Source: Spartobacteria bacterium (lineage in GTDB: Bacteria; Verrucomicrobiota; Verrucomicrobiia; Chthoniobacterales; UBA10450). From it: a stretch of 64,000 bases of DNA. The notes under the pieces were generated by a model, which saw only the letters and a list, made by a program, of their open reading frames with translations, searched no databases and was not told the DNA's origin. The translations under genes and the position numbers were made by a program. Below, in pieces: positions 19,301 through 35,478 of the stretch. Position 1 is the stretch's first letter. Every line of letters starts with the position of its first letter. Location of the stretch: the NCBI GenBank assembly GCA_003169975.1, contig PNAA01000021.1:1-64000 (forward strand). Direction: 5' to 3'.

Positions 19301-19451
19301 CCGGGTAGCGCACACGTCTCGGGTGCTGGCGAATGCGTTTCGCATTCGCGAACTTTCTGGAAGTCCTCGATCTGGGGAGTGGCGTTCGGTTCAGAAAAGT
19401 TCGTCCCCGCGGAACGCGGCGACCAGCACACGAGACGTGTGCGCTACCCGG
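19301..19451. repeat. Palindromic repeat, GGGTAGCGCACACGTCTCG type
   Basis: The terminal arms of about 29 bases (CCGGGTAGCGCACACGTCTC... and its complement ...GAGACGTGTGCGCTACCCGG) are nearly perfect. Inside are further inverted words (GCGAACTTTCTG near 19348 and CAGAAAAGTTCG near 19392). A second copy of the same family lies inside dnaE2 at 32602-32754. This copy abuts the broken end of the imuB N-terminal ORF. Confidence 0.85.
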
Positions 19452-19462
19452 AGAATCGATTT

Positions 19463-19479
19463 GGCGCTCAGAGAGCGCC
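19463..19479. other. Short hairpin at the end of the imuB N-terminal ORF
   Basis: GGCGCTC, loop AGA, GAGCGCC. The stop codon of the imuB N-terminal ORF (19468-19470) lies inside it. No T-run follows on the minus strand, so it is not a classical intrinsic terminator. Confidence 0.5.
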
Positions 19480-20010
19480 GCTCAGGCGCGGCAGATGGCG
19501 CAGGGTTTCAATCGGCAGCGGCGCGAGAAATTTTTGCGGATCATCGATCTGCAGGATCGGCCGCGCCAGGCAGGCGGCGAGAAAACTGAGATCGGGCGTC
19601 GTGGCGAGGCCGGCCTGCGCGGTCAATTGCAACTGGGCAAGTTGCCTAACGACGCGTTCGATATTCTCGCGGCAATTTCTTGACGAGCTAAATCGCACCG
19701 TGCAAACGCCGGGCGCGGTCGCCTCGATCTCCGGCGCCAGGGTCGCCGCGTGATGCAGTAAAATTTCGCCGGCGATTTTCTCCTGCGCACGCGCCCGCGG
19801 TTTGAGGATCAGGCACAAACAGCGCGCCAGCCCCTGGCTCGGCGTCATCCCTGCGCTTACGCCGGCTTCCGCCGCGCTTGGCGTGAGCTGCATGATGGTC
19901 GCTTTCGCTGCCTCATCATCGAGCAAGGCGAGCGGCTTTCGGTGCAACTCGGGCTCGTGCCGTAAGGCCGCTTGCAATTCAAAATCCGGGAGATAAAGCG
20001 CGGCGAACAT
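19468..20010 (-). CDS. imuB: ImuB, N-terminal half only (Y-family polymerase-like, mutasome)
   Basis: ImuB is the non-catalytic Y-family polymerase homologue that links ImuA and DnaE2 (ImuC) to the beta clamp during SOS mutagenesis. This 180-residue ORF covers the palm/fingers part: FAALYLPDFELQAALRH, GVSAGMTPSQGLARC, EIEATAPGVCTVRF and AGLATTPDLSFLAACLA, ending ...PLPIETLRHLP then RLSGAL and a stop. Normal ImuB continues here into the helix-hairpin-helix. That missing part is a separate ORF at 31218-32126 on the other strand. The start overlaps the imuA stop (TGATG), so translation is coupled to imuA. It ends beside a palindromic repeat. The frame has no internal stop; it may act as one half of a split protein. 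Confidence 0.85.
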   Translation of the reverse strand: MFAALYLPDFELQAALRHEPELHRKPLALLDDEAAKATIMQLTPSAAEAGVSAGMTPSQGLARCLCLILKPRARAQEKIAGEILLHHAATLAPEIEATAPGVCTVRFSSSRNCRENIERVVRQLAQLQLTAQAGLATTPDLSFLAACLARPILQIDDPQKFLAPLPIETLRHLPRLSGAL

Positions 20011-20675
20011 CAGCCGGCCCGGGCGATTTTGGGATCGCTCCTCCATTTGTTAGGCTGAGCGCGTTGTAACCGAATCTTCAGTTGCGCCTGCAAGTCGGCC
20101 ACGGCCACATCGAGCTGTAGAAGCGTCCAGCGATTTTCCAAAACCAGTTTCCATTGCGCGCTGCTGATCATGCTTCGCGGAGTGAGAACGAGAAACGCCG
20201 TCGGCGCCGGCTCGACCAAGCGTTGCAGGCGATACCAGTTGCTCGCGGGAATCCGGCTCAATTCCGTTAGCGGATTGAGAACGAGATCGAGGATGACGAG
20301 CGGAAAATTCCCGTCGCGCAACAGCAGATCGGCCGCCTGCATCGCTTCGCTCGTTTTCCGACAGCGCACCCAAAGGAGATGGCGCAACGCGGCGCCGCCG
20401 AGGGATGGCGGGGCGAACGAATCGCGGCCATCGATCAGCGCCATGAAATAGCGCTCACCGCAGGCGCGTTGCAGGAGCGCGGCGATCATCGACGCGCTGC
20501 CAGCACTCGGGGGCGCGCTGGTCAATTCCGTGATCGCCCCTTTCGTGAGGCCGCCGCCGAGCGCTTGATCGAAAAAGGGCAGCCCGGTGGCGAATGGATC
20601 CCCGGCAGGCAGGGATTCCTGCGGAAATTTTTCCGCCAGAAGTCTGCGCAGATCGATGATCTTGCCTGTCGCCAT
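20010..20675 (-). CDS. imuA: ImuA, SOS mutagenesis RecA-like protein
   Basis: RecA/SulA-related partner of ImuB in the SOS-induced error-prone mutasome. About 221 residues. FATGLPFFDQALGGGLTKGAITEL opens the RecA-like core, followed by SAGSASMIAALLQRA (Walker A-like but lacking GKT), YFMALIDGRDSFAPPSL, HLLWVRCRKTSEAMQAADLLL and FPLVILDLVLNPLTELSRIP. I start at the ATG at 20675 because the frame upstream crosses the operator. A TGTTC-TTTT-AAACA box (minus-strand sense) lies 25 bases upstream, indicating LexA control. It is followed immediately by the imuB N-terminal ORF. Confidence 0.88.
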   Translation of the reverse strand: MATGKIIDLRRLLAEKFPQESLPAGDPFATGLPFFDQALGGGLTKGAITELTSAPPSAGSASMIAALLQRACGERYFMALIDGRDSFAPPSLGGAALRHLLWVRCRKTSEAMQAADLLLRDGNFPLVILDLVLNPLTELSRIPASNWYRLQRLVEPAPTAFLVLTPRSMISSAQWKLVLENRWTLLQLDVAVADLQAQLKIRLQRAQPNKWRSDPKIARAG

Positions 20676-20700
20676 GCACGAAAGATGACATTGAATGATA

Positions 20701-20714
20701 TGTTTAAAAGAACA
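20701..20714. promoter_or_regulatory. LexA box upstream of imuA
   Basis: TGTTT-AAAA-GAACA on the plus strand matches the Verrucomicrobia LexA motif TGTTC-N4-GAACA at nine of ten positions. It sits 25 bases before the imuA start codon. The surrounding bases (TATGTTCT.TT.AACATAT in gene sense) match the box before the imuB C-terminal ORF. The motif is recalled from the literature on Verrucomicrobia LexA, not checked here. Confidence 0.8.
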
Positions 20715-20791
20715 TATTTCCACCGACCGCTCGATACCTTCCGCCCCTAAAAGCTGTGACACGAGCGGCAGAATTTGCTATAAGCGCCGGC

Positions 20792-22571: not shown

Positions 22572-23180
22572 CTACCGCGCCACCTGTTTCCGCACGAGCG
22601 ATGTCATCACGCCCTGGATGCGCAACTCCCGCGCCGGAACCAGATCCGGAAACCGCGGATTCTCCGCCTTCAAGTAGGGTCGCCCCCGCTCAATGACATA
22701 ACGTTTCAAGGTCGTCTCGCCATCGATCAACGCCGCCACGATGTCGCCATTTTTCGCGGTCTGCCGATCTTCCAAAATCACGATGTCTCCATCGAGAATA
22801 TGCGCGCCGATCATCGAGTCGCCCCGCACGCGCAAGGCGAAAGTGCGGGCGCTCCGTGAGGCGTTGAGCGATTCGAGGTCGAGCGCGACGTGCCCCTCGA
22901 TGTTTTGCTCGGCGAGGGTGGCCATACCGGCGGGAATCTCCCCGTAGATCGGGATGTCGACCACCCGGCTCTGCGGCGCGGCGGTAATCAAGGCGCGCGC
23001 CTTGCGCGCATGACGCTGGAGAAACCCTTTCCGCTCGAGCGCGGCAATGTATTGCATGACCGAGGTCTGACTCGCGAAGCCGAAGTGTTCCTGAATCTCG
23101 CGCGTGCTCGGCGTCAGCCCTTTGGTGCGCTGTTCGGCCTGGATGAAGTGCAGGATGTTCTTTTGCCCGGGCGTGAGCAT
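22572..23180 (-). CDS. lexA: LexA repressor
   Basis: SOS repressor of 202 residues. The N-terminal winged helix (LTPSTREIQEHFGFASQTSV, about 22-41) binds DNA. The C-terminal S24 peptidase domain has the cleavage bond at Ala84-Gly85 (GEIPAG), the nucleophile Ser122 (RGDSMIGAHILDGDIV) and the general base Lys159 (ETTLKRY). The ATG at 23180 gives the normal length; the open frame upstream crosses a repeat. A weaker match to the LexA box overlaps the start codon, suggesting self-regulation. It lies between the two halves of imuB and would control both. Confidence 0.95.
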   Translation of the reverse strand: MLTPGQKNILHFIQAEQRTKGLTPSTREIQEHFGFASQTSVMQYIAALERKGFLQRHARKARALITAAPQSRVVDIPIYGEIPAGMATLAEQNIEGHVALDLESLNASRSARTFALRVRGDSMIGAHILDGDIVILEDRQTAKNGDIVAALIDGETTLKRYVIERGRPYLKAENPRFPDLVPARELRIQGVMTSLVRKQVAR

Positions 23181-29136: not shown

Positions 29137-31071
29137 ATGAAGCGTTTCGTTCTTGCCGCCGCGGCAGCCTTTCTCGTCGGTCTGGCCGTCGGGCGTTACA
29201 CCCTCCCGCAGCCCCGGCTAACGACCGCGCCCGTTTCCTTTCCGGGCAATTCGTTAGGCGAAATAACGGCGGCGCCTGGTTTCGCATCCTCTCCGGCGAT
29301 CGCTTCCTCCCCGCGCCATTCCAGCACAACGGTGGCCGAACCTGCGCCCACGGAAACAATCATCGCCGCCATCAAAAATGCGCTGGCGCGGCCCCCTAAT
29401 CGACACGACTACGTCGAGCTGAGCAGATTGATCGACGGCACCGACCCGAAAAATGTGCGTCCGGTGCTCGACGCGCTGCAAACTCTGCCTGACCAACGCG
29501 AGAAATCGAACTACCAGGCGATGCTCATCGCGCGCTGGGCGGAGGGCGATCCGCAGGCCGCGCTCGCTTATGCGCAGACCGCCGGCAGCGCTTCGGATCG
29601 CAAATCGGCGGTCCCGGCCGCCCTCCACTCCTGGGCGGAGAAAGATGCGACCGCTGCCAAGGCCTGGGTCCTGCAAATGCCGGCCGGCCAAGACCGCGAT
29701 CGCGCCCTGCAAGCGGTGGTCTCCTCGTTAGCGGAAAACGATCCAGCAGCCGCGCTCGACATGATGCAAACGTTGCCCGCCACCGGCAGCGGACGGCAAA
29801 ATTTTTACTGGCCGATTTTTTCTCGTTGGGCCAGCACCGACCCGGTGACAGCCGCGGCGCGCGCCGTGCAATTGCCGCCCGGTTCCGGGCACGATACCGC
29901 CCTCCAGGTCGTCGCCTCCACCTGGGCGAATCAAGATGCCGAGGCCGCTTTCGCGTGGGCGAACACTTTGCCGCCCGGCCAGGGACGCAACAACGCCGTG
30001 CAAAGCATTTTATCCAGCTGGGCAAATAAGGATCCGCAACGCGTCGCCACCGTGGCCGCGGCCCTGCCGGCCGGTGCGATGCGCGATCAGGCGACCGCCA
30101 GCGTCGCGCGGCAATGGGCGCAGAACGATCCCACTGCCGCGCTCGCCTGGACGCAGGAACTTCCAACTGGCGAAGGACAACGCCGCGCGCTGCAAAGCGT
30201 CCTGACCAGTTGGGCGCAAAGCGATCCGGCGGCGGCGGCGGATTACGTGGCGACGCTGCCCGCGGGTAAAACGCAGGAGGACGCAGTGAGATCGATCGCC
30301 CAGCAACTCGCGAATGCCGATGTGCAACTGGCATTGCATTGGGCGCAAAAACTTCCCGATGGCGCGACGCGGCAAAACGCGCTCAATCCCATCGTCGCGC
30401 AATGGAGCGAAACGGATCCGGCCGCCGCCGCGGATTTTGTCCTGGGCAATAGCAGCGGAGACACGCGCCGGAATTTGCTCGAAGATATTTCGCGCCGCTG
30501 GGCGCAGAGCGATCCGCAAGCCGCCTTGGGTTGGGCGCAAGATTTGTCCGACCCCGCCGCCCGCGCCGCCGTCCTGCCGAACATCATTTCCGCGGTGGCC
30601 GAAAGCGATCCGGCGAGAGCCGCGCAGATGACGCTGCGACTCTCCGGCGAAGCGCAAACCGCGGCGGCCCCTTCCATTATCTCGCAATGGGCGGGGAGCG
30701 ATGCGCAGGCCGCCAGCACGTGGGCCGCCTCGTTTCCAGAAGGAAAAACGCGCGTCCAGGTTTTTCAAAATTTAATCAGTCGTTGGGCGCAAAGTGATCC
30801 GGCCGCGGCCGCGAGCTGGCTCGGGAATTTATCCGAGGGCCCTTCGCGCGACCAGGCGGTGAGCGTTTTCACCAACCGGATCAGTTCCTCCGATCCGCAA
30901 GCCGCAGTGCAATGGGCGGCGACGATCAGCAACGATAGCCTGCGCAACAGCCAGGTAGAATCCACCGTCCGCACCTGGCTGAGAAGCGATCCGCACAACG
31001 CCTCCGCCTGGATCACCAATTCGTCGTTGCCGGACGAGACGAAGGCGCGGTTGCTGAATCCGGGCGAGTAA
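29137..31071 (+). CDS. Exported WAxxDPxAA-repeat protein, unknown function
   Basis: A 644-residue protein. An N-terminal signal or anchor helix (KRFVLAAAAAFLVGLAVGRY) is followed by a linker. From about residue 110 to the end there is a repeat of about 31-33 residues with the pattern WAxxDPxAAxxWAxxLPxGxxRxxALxxV. Examples are WAQNDPTAALAWTQELPTGE and WAQSDPAAAADYVATLPAGK. Roughly 15 units are visible; each looks like a pair of helices, so the protein should form an extended solenoid in the periplasm. I do not recognise a named family. The neighbour downstream is a palindromic repeat and the imuB C-terminal ORF. Confidence 0.75.
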   Translation: MKRFVLAAAAAFLVGLAVGRYTLPQPRLTTAPVSFPGNSLGEITAAPGFASSPAIASSPRHSSTTVAEPAPTETIIAAIKNALARPPNRHDYVELSRLIDGTDPKNVRPVLDALQTLPDQREKSNYQAMLIARWAEGDPQAALAYAQTAGSASDRKSAVPAALHSWAEKDATAAKAWVLQMPAGQDRDRALQAVVSSLAENDPAAALDMMQTLPATGSGRQNFYWPIFSRWASTDPVTAAARAVQLPPGSGHDTALQVVASTWANQDAEAAFAWANTLPPGQGRNNAVQSILSSWANKDPQRVATVAAALPAGAMRDQATASVARQWAQNDPTAALAWTQELPTGEGQRRALQSVLTSWAQSDPAAAADYVATLPAGKTQEDAVRSIAQQLANADVQLALHWAQKLPDGATRQNALNPIVAQWSETDPAAAADFVLGNSSGDTRRNLLEDISRRWAQSDPQAALGWAQDLSDPAARAAVLPNIISAVAESDPARAAQMTLRLSGEAQTAAAPSIISQWAGSDAQAASTWAASFPEGKTRVQVFQNLISRWAQSDPAAAASWLGNLSEGPSRDQAVSVFTNRISSSDPQAAVQWAATISNDSLRNSQVESTVRTWLRSDPHNASAWITNSSLPDETKARLLNPGE

Positions 31072-31158: not shown

Positions 31159-31175
31159 TTGGCCGGCTATTATTA

Positions 31176-31189
31176 TGTTCTGTTGAACA
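31176..31189. promoter_or_regulatory. LexA box upstream of the imuB C-terminal ORF and dnaE2
   Basis: TGTTC-TGTT-GAACA is a perfect match to the TGTTC-N4-GAACA LexA motif described for Verrucomicrobia (from memory). It lies 28 bases before the start codon, almost the same spacing as at imuA. This indicates that the second half of the split mutasome is also SOS-controlled. Confidence 0.88.
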
Positions 31190-31217
31190 TATTCTTTTCC
31201 GGCTCTAATTTTCGGCC

Positions 31218-32126
31218 ATGAAGGACGAGCGCGCCGCGGAAATTTCGCACATTTTCTCGATCCTCCACAAATGGGGCGTGCACACGTTAGGCGAACTCGC
31301 CGCCCTCGCGCCGGATGAACTCGGCGCCCGCCTTGGCCCGGTCGCGGTGCGGCTCTGGGAACAGGCCAACGGCCGGGCAACGCGGCTCTTGCAACTCGTC
31401 AGGCCAACGGAAATTTTCGCCGAGCAGCTCGAATTCGAGCACGAGATCGAGACGGCGGAACCGCTCCTTTTTGTTCTCCGGCGCTTTCTCGAGCAATTAA
31501 ACCTGCGCCTCGGCGCGCTCTATTTCGTCGCGCAAGAGATCACGCTCGAAATGACTTTTGCCGACAAGTCCCGCTACGAGCACCGCTTCCACATTCCCGA
31601 TCCGACCAACTCGCTGGAGATTTTATTTCGGTTGCTCCAGACCCATCTCGACACTTTTCGAGCGGACCACCCGATCGTGGCCGTGGGGCTCGCCGCGCAG
31701 GCGAACCAACCGGCGCGGCAACAGTTTCATTTTTTCGAGACGCCCTTGCGCGACCCGGGCCGGCTGCACGAAACGCTCACCCGGCTCACGGGATTGTTAG
31801 GCCGAGAGCGGGTCGGGACGCCGATCCTGGAGGATTCGCATCGGCCCGATGCCTTTCATCTCGAGGCGTTTTCCTGGGAGTTGGCGCCCGCGCCTAACGA
31901 TTTACCGATGATGATCGGTCCGGCGTTTCGCCGGTTTCGCGCCGAATTTTTGCCCTCATGCGATGAGACGGTCATGGCACGACAGGGTCCTTATCTCGCC
32001 TCGGGTGATTGGTGGGACGAAAAGAAGTGGCAGCGGGCGGAGTGGGATTTGGAGCTCGCGGACGGCGTGGTTTGCCGCGTGCAGGAACGGGCCGGCGGAT
32101 GGGAAGTCGAGGGGATGTATGACTGA
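31218..32126 (+). CDS. imuB: ImuB, C-terminal half only (little finger and C-terminal domain)
   Basis: A 302-residue ORF that is the missing second half of ImuB. It begins MKDERAAEISHIFSILHKWG and continues VHTLGELAALAPDELGARLG, the helix-hairpin-helix that normally follows the palm/fingers. LFVLRRFLEQLNLRLG and the little-finger region follow. The C-terminus ends CRVQERAGGWEVEGMYD, matching the usual ImuB ending. It starts with its own ATG and LexA box. With the 180-residue N-terminal half at 19468-20010 it totals 482 residues, the size of one complete ImuB. dnaE2 follows in the same direction after a 72-base palindromic repeat. An unbroken frame and a promoter suggest that it is still made. 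Confidence 0.87.
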   Translation: MKDERAAEISHIFSILHKWGVHTLGELAALAPDELGARLGPVAVRLWEQANGRATRLLQLVRPTEIFAEQLEFEHEIETAEPLLFVLRRFLEQLNLRLGALYFVAQEITLEMTFADKSRYEHRFHIPDPTNSLEILFRLLQTHLDTFRADHPIVAVGLAAQANQPARQQFHFFETPLRDPGRLHETLTRLTGLLGRERVGTPILEDSHRPDAFHLEAFSWELAPAPNDLPMMIGPAFRRFRAEFLPSCDETVMARQGPYLASGDWWDEKKWQRAEWDLELADGVVCRVQERAGGWEVEGMYD

Positions 32127-32143
32127 GCCCAGCGTTTTTTTTG

Positions 32144-32215
32144 TTGTAGCGGCGGTCTATGACCGCCGAACCACTTTGTTCTGCCCCGTTCGGCGGTCAC
32201 AGACCGCCGCTACAA
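32144..32215. repeat. Palindromic repeat, TTGTAGCGGCGGTC type
   Basis: The arms TTGTAGCGGCGGTCTATGAC... and ...TTCGGCGGTCACAGACCGCC... are almost perfect complements (27 bases each) around an 18-base spacer. It lies between the imuB C-terminal ORF and dnaE2, inside what should be one operon, so the transcript would carry a strong hairpin. Confidence 0.85.
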
Positions 32216-32238
32216 CCCCACACTGAGATTGCCGCCCC

Positions 32239-35200
32239 ATGTCCTATGCCGAACTGCACACCGCCAGTGCTTTCAGTTTTCTCCGCGGCGCTTCTTTTCC
32301 TGAGCAGCTGGCGGAGCGCGCAGCGGAGTTGGAGCTACCGGCTGTCGCGCTGCTCGATCGCAACGGCGTCTACGGCGCGCAGCGTTTTTCCGTCGCCTGT
32401 CGCGAGCATGGAGTGCGGCCGATTGTCGGTTGCGACCTAACGATGGAATGCGGCGCAGTTCTGCCGGTGCTGGTGGAAAATCGCGTCGGCTACGCCAACC
32501 TTTGCTCCCTCCTCACCCAGGCGCATCTGCGTAGCGCAAAGGGAAGCTGCGCGGTGCGGTGGGAAGAATTGGCCGAATTCTCCCCGGGGTTGATCGCACT
32601 GCTGGGTAGCGCATGCGTCTCGCGTGCTGGCGACGGCGTCCTCGCTGTCGCGAACTTTTCTGATGATCGACGATTTCAAGGCAAGCGACGCGTGCAGAAA
32701 AGTTTGTCGCGCTGGAACAGCGCGACCAGCACGCGAGACGCGTGCGCTACCCAGCCAGGAGACCGCGTGCGACGACTGCTCGACGCTTTTGGCCGGGACC
32801 AGGTTTACGTCGAGTTGCAGCGGCACCTCGTGCGCGGTGAAGAGCGGGTAAACCGCCAGCTGATCGATCTCGCCCAGCACCACAGTCTCCCGCTGCTCGC
32901 GACCAACGGCGTGCAACACGCCACGCCTCTGGGTCGCGAAGTGCTCGACGTTTTTACCTGCATCCGCGAACACACCCATCTCGACGCCGCCGGCACCCGC
33001 CTAACGACAAATGCGGAACGCCATTTGAAGAGCGCCGCGGAAATGAAAGCGCTCTTTCGCGATCGGCCGGACGCGATTGAGAACACCTTCCGCCTCGCGG
33101 AACGCCTCCAGTTTTCCCTCGCGAACCTCGGCTACGATTTCCCCGCTTACCCCGTGCCGGAGGGCCATTCGATGGATTCCTTTCTGCGCACGATCACCCT
33201 CTTCGGCGCGCAACAACGCTACGCCGCGATCAGCCGCGCGGTACAGGCAAAGCTCAACGAGGAACTGGCGCTCATCCAAAAGCTCGGGTTCTCCGGTTAT
33301 TTTTTGATCGTCTGGGACATCGTCAATTTCTGCCGCGAACACAACATCATGGTGCAGGGGCGGGGCAGCGCGGCGAATAGCGCGGTCTGTTTTTGTCTCG
33401 GCATCACCCCAGTCGATCCGGTGAGCAACCATCTCGTCTTCGAACGCTTTTTGAGCGAAGGACGCAAAGGCTGGCCGGATATCGATCTCGATCTCCCGAG
33501 CGGCGACCGGCGCGAAAGCGTCATCCAGGAAATTTATCGGCGTTACGGCAAACACGGCGCCGCGATGACGGCGAACGTAATCACTTATCGCGGCCGGAGC
33601 GCGGCGCGCGAGATCGGCAAATCGCTCAACTTTGCGCCGAACATTCTCGACCGTTTCTCGCACCTCTTTGCCCACGGCGATTTCCCGCACACCCTTGAGC
33701 TTCAGGCGCAGATCGAGCAATCGGGTCTGCCCAAGACGCATCCGCGCATGCCGGCATTCGTTAGGCTTTATCAATCGATTTACGGCTTGCCACGGCATCT
33801 CGGGCAGCACTCCGGCGGGATGATCATCTGCCGGGACAAACTAAGCTCCTTTGTCCCGCTGGAGAACGCGTCGATGCCCGGCCGGGTCGTCGCGCAGTGG
33901 GACAAGGATGACTGCGAGGATCTCGGGATCGTGAAAGTCGACTTGTTAGGCCTGGGCATGATGTCGGTCATGCAGGACACCTTCGAGCTTTGCCGCGCGC
34001 GCGGGCGGCCGCTCGACCTGGCCCACATTCCGAAGGATAACCCCGCCACTTTCGCGATGATGCAGCGGGCCGACACGATCGGCGTTTTCCAGATCGAGAG
34101 CCGCGCCCAGATGGCGACGCTGCCGCGGATGCAGCCGAAATGTTTTTACGACGTGGTGATCGAGGTCGCGATCATCCGCCCGGGGCCGATCCAGGGCGAC
34201 ATGGTGCATCCTTATCTGAACCGGCGCGCGGGGCGCGAGCCGGTGACCTATTTCGACGCGCGGCTGGAACCGATCCTCGAGCGGACGTTAGGCGTGCCCT
34301 TGTTTCAGGAGCAAATGCTCAAGATCGCGATGATCATGGCCGATTTTTCCGGCGCGGAAGCGGAAGAGCTGCGCCGCGCGCTCAGTTTCCATCGCTCGCC
34401 CGAGCGGATGGAAAAAGTGAGCGTCAAGCTGCGCGCCGGGATGGAAAGAAATGGCGTCGCGCCTGAGGTGATCGTGAAGATCATTCAAGCGATCAGCTCG
34501 TTTGCGCTCTATGGATTTCCGGAGTCGCACGCGATCAGTTTCGCCATTCTCGCCTACGGGAGCGCGTATCTGAAAGTGCATCGCGCGGCGGAGTTTTACG
34601 CCAGCCTGTTGAACAATCAGCCGATGGGGTTTTATGCCCCGGCGACGATCGTGAAGGACGCGCACCGCCATGGCATCCGGATGCGCCCGGTTTGTGCAGC
34701 GGAGTCGCAATGGCGTTGCGCGGTCGAGTCGAATGAGAGTGTGCGGCTGGGGTTTTGTGTCGTAAATGGTTTGCGGCAGGAGCATGCTGAAGAACTCGTT
34801 AGGCGACGCGGGGAGAGTGCCTTTCGGTCGCTGGAGGATTTCAAGCGGCGCGTTGCATTAACAAAAGACGAGCTGCGCGCGCTGGCGGAACTCGGCGCGC
34901 TCAATTGTTTCGCGGAGCATCGGCGTGCCGCGCTCTGGAACGTCGAAGAACCGGCGCCGAACGGGCTCTTTGCTGTAGCCGGGGGCGTTGACCCCAGCTC
35001 CTCTGTGGCCCCGTTTCTCCCCGCCGGGTTCAACGCCCCCGGCTACAACGGACCGCTCGCTCCCATGACGCTGCCGGAACGGGTGCAGGCCGATTACGCA
35101 CGAATGAACCTCACGACGGGCCCGCATCCGATGAAGTTGTTGCGGGAACAGTTGCCTAACATCTCGCGGGCCACCGATCTGGCGCAAGCGCGTCATGGCG

Positions 35201-35478
35201 CCACGGTGCAGATCGCCGGGAACGTGATTTGCCGGCAGCGACCCGGGACGGCGAAGGGGTTTGTCTTCATCAGCCTGGAGGATGAAACCGGGGTCGCGAA
35301 TGCGATTGTCACGCCCGATTTGTTTGAACGCATTCGCCTGGTGATTACGGAAGAGCCGTTTCTGCTCATCGAAGGTGAAGTGCAAAACACGGAGAACGTG
35401 GTGCTCGTGAAGGCGCGGAACATTCGCCCGCTGGCCCACGCCCAACTCGCCGGAAGCGAGTCGCACGATTTTCGTTAG
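32239..35478 (+). CDS. dnaE2: Error-prone DNA polymerase III alpha subunit DnaE2 (ImuC)
   Basis: Catalytic polymerase of the ImuA-ImuB-DnaE2 mutasome, 1079 residues. An N-terminal PHP domain begins YAELHTASAFSFLRGASFPE. The polymerase palm has QGRGSAANSAVCFCLGITPV, WPDIDLDLPSGDRRESV with the metal-binding aspartates, and IVKVDLLGLGMMSV. GIFQIESRAQM-like FQIESRAQMATLPRM and IIRPGPIQGDMVHPYL follow. The OB domain is near the C-terminus. Two palindromic repeats are inserted in frame: residues about 122-172 and about 912-936. The frame stays open across both, and neither touches the aspartates. It lacks its usual imuA-imuB upstream; only the imuB C-terminal half precedes it. Confidence 0.93.
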   Translation: MSYAELHTASAFSFLRGASFPEQLAERAAELELPAVALLDRNGVYGAQRFSVACREHGVRPIVGCDLTMECGAVLPVLVENRVGYANLCSLLTQAHLRSAKGSCAVRWEELAEFSPGLIALLGSACVSRAGDGVLAVANFSDDRRFQGKRRVQKSLSRWNSATSTRDACATQPGDRVRRLLDAFGRDQVYVELQRHLVRGEERVNRQLIDLAQHHSLPLLATNGVQHATPLGREVLDVFTCIREHTHLDAAGTRLTTNAERHLKSAAEMKALFRDRPDAIENTFRLAERLQFSLANLGYDFPAYPVPEGHSMDSFLRTITLFGAQQRYAAISRAVQAKLNEELALIQKLGFSGYFLIVWDIVNFCREHNIMVQGRGSAANSAVCFCLGITPVDPVSNHLVFERFLSEGRKGWPDIDLDLPSGDRRESVIQEIYRRYGKHGAAMTANVITYRGRSAAREIGKSLNFAPNILDRFSHLFAHGDFPHTLELQAQIEQSGLPKTHPRMPAFVRLYQSIYGLPRHLGQHSGGMIICRDKLSSFVPLENASMPGRVVAQWDKDDCEDLGIVKVDLLGLGMMSVMQDTFELCRARGRPLDLAHIPKDNPATFAMMQRADTIGVFQIESRAQMATLPRMQPKCFYDVVIEVAIIRPGPIQGDMVHPYLNRRAGREPVTYFDARLEPILERTLGVPLFQEQMLKIAMIMADFSGAEAEELRRALSFHRSPERMEKVSVKLRAGMERNGVAPEVIVKIIQAISSFALYGFPESHAISFAILAYGSAYLKVHRAAEFYASLLNNQPMGFYAPATIVKDAHRHGIRMRPVCAAESQWRCAVESNESVRLGFCVVNGLRQEHAEELVRRRGESAFRSLEDFKRRVALTKDELRALAELGALNCFAEHRRAALWNVEEPAPNGLFAVAGGVDPSSSVAPFLPAGFNAPGYNGPLAPMTLPERVQADYARMNLTTGPHPMKLLREQLPNISRATDLAQARHGATVQIAGNVICRQRPGTAKGFVFISLEDETGVANAIVTPDLFERIRLVITEEPFLLIEGEVQNTENVVLVKARNIRPLAHAQLAGSESHDFR
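32602..32754. repeat. GGGTAGCGCA-type palindromic repeat inserted in dnaE2
   Basis: The 29-base terminal arms (CTGGGTAGCGCATGCGTCTC... and its complement) differ by one base. Total length 153 bases, exactly 51 codons. Inner words GCGAACTTTTCTG and CAGAAAAGTTTG match the copy at 19301-19451. It encodes ACVSRAGDG...TSTRDACATQP within dnaE2 without a stop. Confidence 0.88.
34974..35047. repeat. TGTAGCCGGGG-type palindromic repeat inserted in dnaE2
   Basis: The arms TGTAGCCGGGGGCGTTGACC and its complement GGTTCAACGCCCCCGGCTACA surround about 32 bases. It encodes VAGGVDPSS...FNAPGY in frame near the C-terminus, between the helical domain and the OB region. It is the same family as the copies at 4819 and 12501. 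Confidence 0.87.

Follow-up and report, generated by a model that had tools for sequence, protein, structure and literature searches.

A split ImuB in a verrucomicrobial family with a conserved LexA box before each of its two operons

The 64,000-nucleotide stretch of DNA analysed here (the window) encodes ImuB as two pieces on opposite strands, one beside imuA and the other beside dnaE2, and each of the two operons carries a predicted LexA operator. The split is found in all sampled members of the bacterial family that have the gene, and we consider it likely, with a probability of roughly 0.78, that an ancestral fission of ImuB, LexA operators on both operons, their joint release and a mutasome formed in trans together explain the locus. 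According to this reading, an ancestral rearrangement involving an inversion would have split a lexA-imuA-imuB-dnaE2 cassette between the palm and the thumb of ImuB; the palm-fingers half would have remained with imuA under the imuA LexA box, and the half with thumb, little finger and ImuB-C domain would have remained with dnaE2 and acquired a second LexA box. LexA lying over the -35 region would repress the promoter driving imuB-C and dnaE2, and upon DNA damage it would leave both promoters together, such that ImuA and ImuB-N would be made simultaneously with ImuB-C and DnaE2 and would assemble into a mutasome in trans. LexA binding, SOS induction and the assembly of the two ImuB pieces are what we infer from the sequences. 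In its strongest form, where ImuB is an obligate two-subunit, split inactive polymerase and a mutasome arises only when both LexA-controlled operons fire, the proposal is tentative and in our view falls a little short of an even bet.

The C-terminal half, imuB-C (31218..32126, plus strand, 302 aa), contains the Pfam IMS_C domain and comprises the thumb, the little finger, a clamp-motif-like and a RecA-NT-like segment and the ImuB-C domain. It precedes dnaE2 (32239..35478, plus strand; NF004225 above cut-off), which encodes the error-prone polymerase. The palm-fingers half, imuB-N, lies on the minus strand (19468..20007; roughly 180 residues; Pfam IMS, E 6e-11) and is translationally coupled to the RecA-like imuA (20010..20676, minus strand; NCBIfam ImuA model, E 2.5e-9, which is below cut-off), the imuB-N start and the imuA stop codon sharing one base (TGATG). 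Between the two halves, on the same strand as imuA, lies lexA (22572..23180; TIGR00498 above cut-off). Thus, in place of a single chain combining an inactive Y-family core with an ImuB-C domain, the window has two ORFs on opposite strands that jointly cover the fused protein, and in place of one operon or an imuA-imuB/dnaE2 layout it has divergent imuA-imuB-N and imuB-C-dnaE2 units. Aligned with fused ImuBs of other families, the two pieces join end to end and every conserved block is accounted for; in this alignment the N-half ends in ...APLPIETLRHLPRLSGAL (also given as ...FLAPLPIETLRHLPRLSGAL) and the C-half starts at ...IFSILHKWGVHTLG (also given as MKDERAAEISHIFSILHKWGVHTLG). By matching a fused-ImuB profile to Pol IV structures, with what we take to be the Pol IV domain boundaries, the junction was placed near the limit between palm and thumb. 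The QQFHFF segment of the C-half aligns with a QFxLF segment of the outgroups and reads as a clamp-motif-like element by analogy, the mycobacterial counterpart being QLPLWG, while the segment ETLTRLTGLLGRERVG reads as a RecA-NT-like motif. AlphaFold2 predictions of the two halves from shallow alignments reached a mean pLDDT of 59 and 42, too poor for use. Since a 29-base inverted repeat (97% complementary; 32143-32216) lies between imuB-C and dnaE2 and could attenuate read-through into the latter, their co-transcription is not certain.

The split is old and common to the family. Among 67 family genomes in a survey of the order, both halves occur in 53, the N-half alone in 10, the C-half alone in 2 and no half in 2, as counted by hand from the survey tables; all 15 genomes that are at least 95% complete have both. 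The two genomes with neither half (G082 and G190, genus g7) are 93% and 90% complete, and it is possible that they have lost the whole mutasome. When the family was searched more widely, 68 of 83 genomes yielded the C-half, and its open frame never exceeded 398 aa. Outside the family, in the rest of the order and in the class and phylum samples, ImuB is a single ORF with a length of some 480 aa or above (the class sample has a minimum of 478 aa); the few exceptions lie at the end of a contig or have a broken reading frame. In a FastTree tree of ImuB-C and DnaE2 the family sequences group in a single clade (support 1.0), which points to a single old fission. A recent break or an assembly error is ruled out, as many genera, represented by independent genomes, have the split in common.

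Whenever both halves fall on a single contig, 7-18 kb separates them and they occupy opposite strands, in the order imuB-N, imuA and lexA on the minus strand, then, further on, dus and lptF on the minus strand and dinG, in some cases rep644, imuB-C and dnaE2 on the plus strand. Many outgroup loci are instead colinear lexA-imuA-imuB-dnaE2, where imuA was deduced from the gap between lexA and imuB because the window ImuA is too diverged to match; dus, lptF and dinG were not found next to lexA-imuA in the outgroup stretches fetched. These layouts are most simply explained by an inversion that had one of its ends within imuB. The first-pass annotation had reasoned from an inversion breaking imuB, and ImuB is indeed broken at a single point, with its halves in opposite orientation; the event must, however, be placed in the ancestry of the family and was no recent accident of a single genome.

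A perfect LexA box, TGTTCTGTTGAACA, occupies 31176..31189 on the plus strand, exactly 28 bases before the imuB-C ATG at 31218, as had been noted at first reading; box start and start codon are 42 bases apart, a spacing repeated in relatives. It is the only perfect TGTTCN4GAACA palindrome in the window and one of three in the genome. The extended word TATGTTCTNTTNAACATAT around it (31174-31192, plus strand) recurs in the window only on the minus strand at 20698-20716, in the imuA promoter, which bears out the further claim that it surrounds the imuA box as well; shuffled sequence gave no match to this 19-base word. The predicted imuA operator (20698..20716, minus strand; TATGTTCTTTTAAACATAT) has an imperfect box, TGTTCTTTTAAACA, with one mismatch in the core. 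When the 4.47-Mb genome was searched with the 18-base core ATGTTCNNTTGAACATAT, the imuB-C site was the single perfect match and the imuA site was among the next best, with one mismatch; the reversed control pattern found nothing genome-wide. No LexA box was found in front of imuB-N or dinG. The LexA-binding motif of Verrucomicrobia is reportedly TGTTC-N4-GAACA, the same in palindrome and spacing as the imuB-C box, although the window adds an asymmetric extension, TTGAACATAT, that we read as an overlap with the -35 element. With this palindrome in the promoter, its conservation before orthologous SOS genes in relatives and a LexA encoded in the genome, the imuB-C box is, judged by sequence, a true Verrucomicrobia-type LexA operator. 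A binding motif for LexA in this phylum is credited to Erill et al. 2016 in PMC8565304.

We searched 150 bases upstream of imuB-C in 53 genomes and found the box directly before the gene in 40 of 40 genomes of g1, g5, g6, g8, g9 and g10 (37 perfect, one with one mismatch, two with two), while none of 2,650 shuffled upstream regions contained a perfect site. All 13 genomes of g2, g3, g4, g7, g11 and g13 lack a box within this range. In the genera without a directly adjoining box, rep644 intervenes between box and imuB-C, and a box with 0-2 mismatches precedes rep644 in G008, G019, G028, G037, G051, G058, G064, G091, G175, G194 and G149, and also in G200; G167 and G187 were left out of this check, their contigs ending inside rep644. 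As the left arm is often damaged in these genera (TGATC, TGCTC, TACTC) with TTGAACAT retained, LexA control may be weak there. On the other side, every N-half region examined on long loci has a box with no or one mismatch before imuA. Conservation on this scale argues for selection keeping both halves under LexA control, and it supports the earlier proposal that the C-half gained an SOS-type promoter of its own and that co-regulation is selected; the conserved box probably keeps the two halves working together. Perfect boxes at other new junctions of the cassette, one at the dnaE2 start in G160, of another family (L107:15537-15550), where imuB and dnaE2 flank two rep644-type genes, and one immediately before dnaE2 in G201 (g7; L143:1889-1902), support repeated selection for SOS control of detached pieces.

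The gene rep644 encodes a repeat protein and lies upstream of the box in the window (29137..31071, plus strand). It is present in single copy in the genome, and its product has an N-terminal signal-like segment and a weak match to Pfam ELYS only, with no NCBIfam match. In g2, g3, g4 and g7 it heads the predicted SOS operon as the first gene after the box, and two of its relatives lie between imuB and dnaE2 in G160 (L107:12272-15426). These positions make rep644 a candidate SOS-linked gene.

Because the box stands one gene upstream, before rep644, in several genera, it may have been inherited with rep644 rather than evolved for imuB-C. It is possible, at odds that we place below even, that rep644 was already LexA-controlled when the rearrangement put imuB-C behind it, and that rep644 was later lost or the promoter moved. 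The order box, rep644, imuB-C, dnaE2 in g2, g3, g4 and g7 is what such a capture predicts, in g4 the promoters of rep644 have the same -10 word, at the same spacing, as those of imuB-C, and the rep644 homologues in the outgroup G160 likewise sit within the cassette. Against it, g1 and g9, which are sister to all others, have the box after rep644, and the genera without rep644 show no clear remnant of it before imuB-C. Every part of the family has a box on the imuB-C/dnaE2 operon, but the differing position in g1 and g9 leaves the ancestral placement of the box, first before rep644 or first before imuB-C, ambiguous.

The C-half might also be the sole working part, a reduced ImuB consisting of its thumb, little-finger and ImuB-C domains, with the N-half persisting near imuA as a relic. 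The most reduced ImuBs known retain exactly these parts, and thumb and ImuB-C have been modelled as the contacts to DnaE2 (PMC12926913). We nevertheless hold this to be unlikely, for the N-half is present in 63 of 67 family genomes, including all that are at least 95% complete, its start overlaps the imuA stop codon and it evolves under constraint. In pairwise comparisons with dS 0.1-1.5, which are not independent so that the values are descriptive, the N-half has a median dN/dS of 0.25 over 331 pairs and the C-half one of 0.18 over 294 pairs, compared with 0.12 for dnaE2 and 0.09 for lexA; imuA was left out on account of absurd values, probably caused by gapped low-identity matches that shift the ORFs out of frame. 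Both halves are thus under purifying selection, and the C-half is a conserved gene and not debris.

In the imuB-C promoter of the window a putative -35 element, TTGAAC (31183..31188, plus strand), falls inside the operator right arm, and a putative -10 region, TCTAATTT (31204..31211, plus strand), follows; it is weak in the window, relatives having TTAAAT/TAAATT, and a strict sigma-70 scan at the imuB-C promoter of the window detected no promoter. Hardly any change is seen in the right arm, TTGAACAT, among the 40 imuB-C promoters, in contrast to the variable left bases of the spacer, and in most of them a TTAAAT/TAAATT/TAGATT word stands about 15-18 bases after the -35. From this pattern the right arm seems to serve as the -35 element too, which LexA would then cover.

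The same promoters speak against the idea, raised by the first-pass annotation, that the SOS promoter of imuB-C was copied from imuA. The 19-base word common to both sites in the window would fit a duplication; however, a comparison of the two upstream regions for common origin found the flanks outside this word matching at chance (27% identity in register, shuffled baseline 25%), the downstream elements differ, with a conserved TGCCAT block in imuA promoters and a TTAAAT block in imuB-C promoters, and among the promoters compared no relative has long homologous flanks around both boxes. The shared word equals the consensus of LexA site and -35 throughout the family, and with flank identity at baseline it reflects a common regulator and -35 element, not a copied segment; a duplicate origin is accordingly rejected as highly improbable. 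A chance palindrome without function, for which nothing more specific speaks than that about one GAACN4GTTC word is expected per window, has next to no likelihood and is rejected by the genome search and the shuffles, given 37 perfect boxes at the same place in 53 genomes against none in 2,650 shuffled regions and a site that is the single best match genome-wide.

An ancestral fission with a box on each piece sets the locus apart from the nearest systems described. It agrees with the LexA-regulated imuA-imuB-dnaE2 cassette in its ImuA, ImuB domains, DnaE2, LexA boxes and lexA beside imuA, and differs from the standard form in that ImuB is two proteins, cut between palm and thumb, in two divergent operons each with a box. 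In mycobacteria the cassette is divided into two damage-inducible units, imuA'-imuB and dnaE2 (PMC6511836, PMC10421592), but ImuB is whole there, whereas the cut in the window falls inside it. The systems of DnaE2X, iPolY and stand-alone ImuB-C, the last without thumb and little finger, are a 'split ImuB' that lacks imuA and uses RecA in its place, in a state proposed to be ancestral (PMC12926913). There, as in the family of the window, polymerase-like and ImuB-C parts reside on separate proteins; however, the DnaE2X cut precedes the ImuB-C domain, while here imuA is present and the C-half starts at the thumb and has IMS_C, thumb and little finger staying with ImuB-C. Their split is proposed to be ancestral and that of the window family derives from a fused ancestor: with a fused ImuB in all sampled outgroups, a split ImuB can be derived and not only ancestral. 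We found no report of a palm-thumb fission of ImuB in the open-licence literature.

In published models, ImuB touches DnaE2 via its thumb and ImuB-C barrel, and its contacts to ImuA are RecA-NT and ImuB-C (PMC12926913). The window C-half holds thumb, little finger and ImuB-C, and its gene is paired with dnaE2; that for palm and fingers is paired with imuA. Nature has here separated the parts modelled against DnaE2 and ImuA (thumb, little finger, RecA-NT, ImuB-C) from the palm-fingers, which makes a standing question testable, namely what purpose the dead polymerase core of ImuB serves. It is also a case of a split SOS complex that has retained a LexA box on each piece over the lifetime of its family.

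Beyond the mutasome, recA of the window genome (L137) has no LexA box, its best site having 4 mismatches. Most other family genomes have a TGTTCATTTGAACT box about 40 bases before lexA, which is absent in the window genome (23170-23300) and in G095 (g9); both have only a degenerate box word overlapping the lexA start codon, and in these genera LexA may regulate itself differently. A recA without a box and a lexA whose box is degenerate make the local SOS regulon unusual. Near-perfect boxes (L133, L134) stand 18-20 bases ahead of two ORFs, one radical-SAM photolyase-like and one GIY-YIG-like, identified by eye from their translations, and these are probable further members of the predicted LexA regulon.

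The locus also carries a mobile-element-like repeat. A MITE-like sequence of about 150 bases with palindromic ends, which matches dozens of places in the genome in full or in part, occurs at 19305-19449, just beyond the imuB-N stop, and at 32606-32757, where it lies in frame inside the PHP region of dnaE2; similar insertions are found at the same point of dnaE2 in G099 (L005) and G070 (L091).
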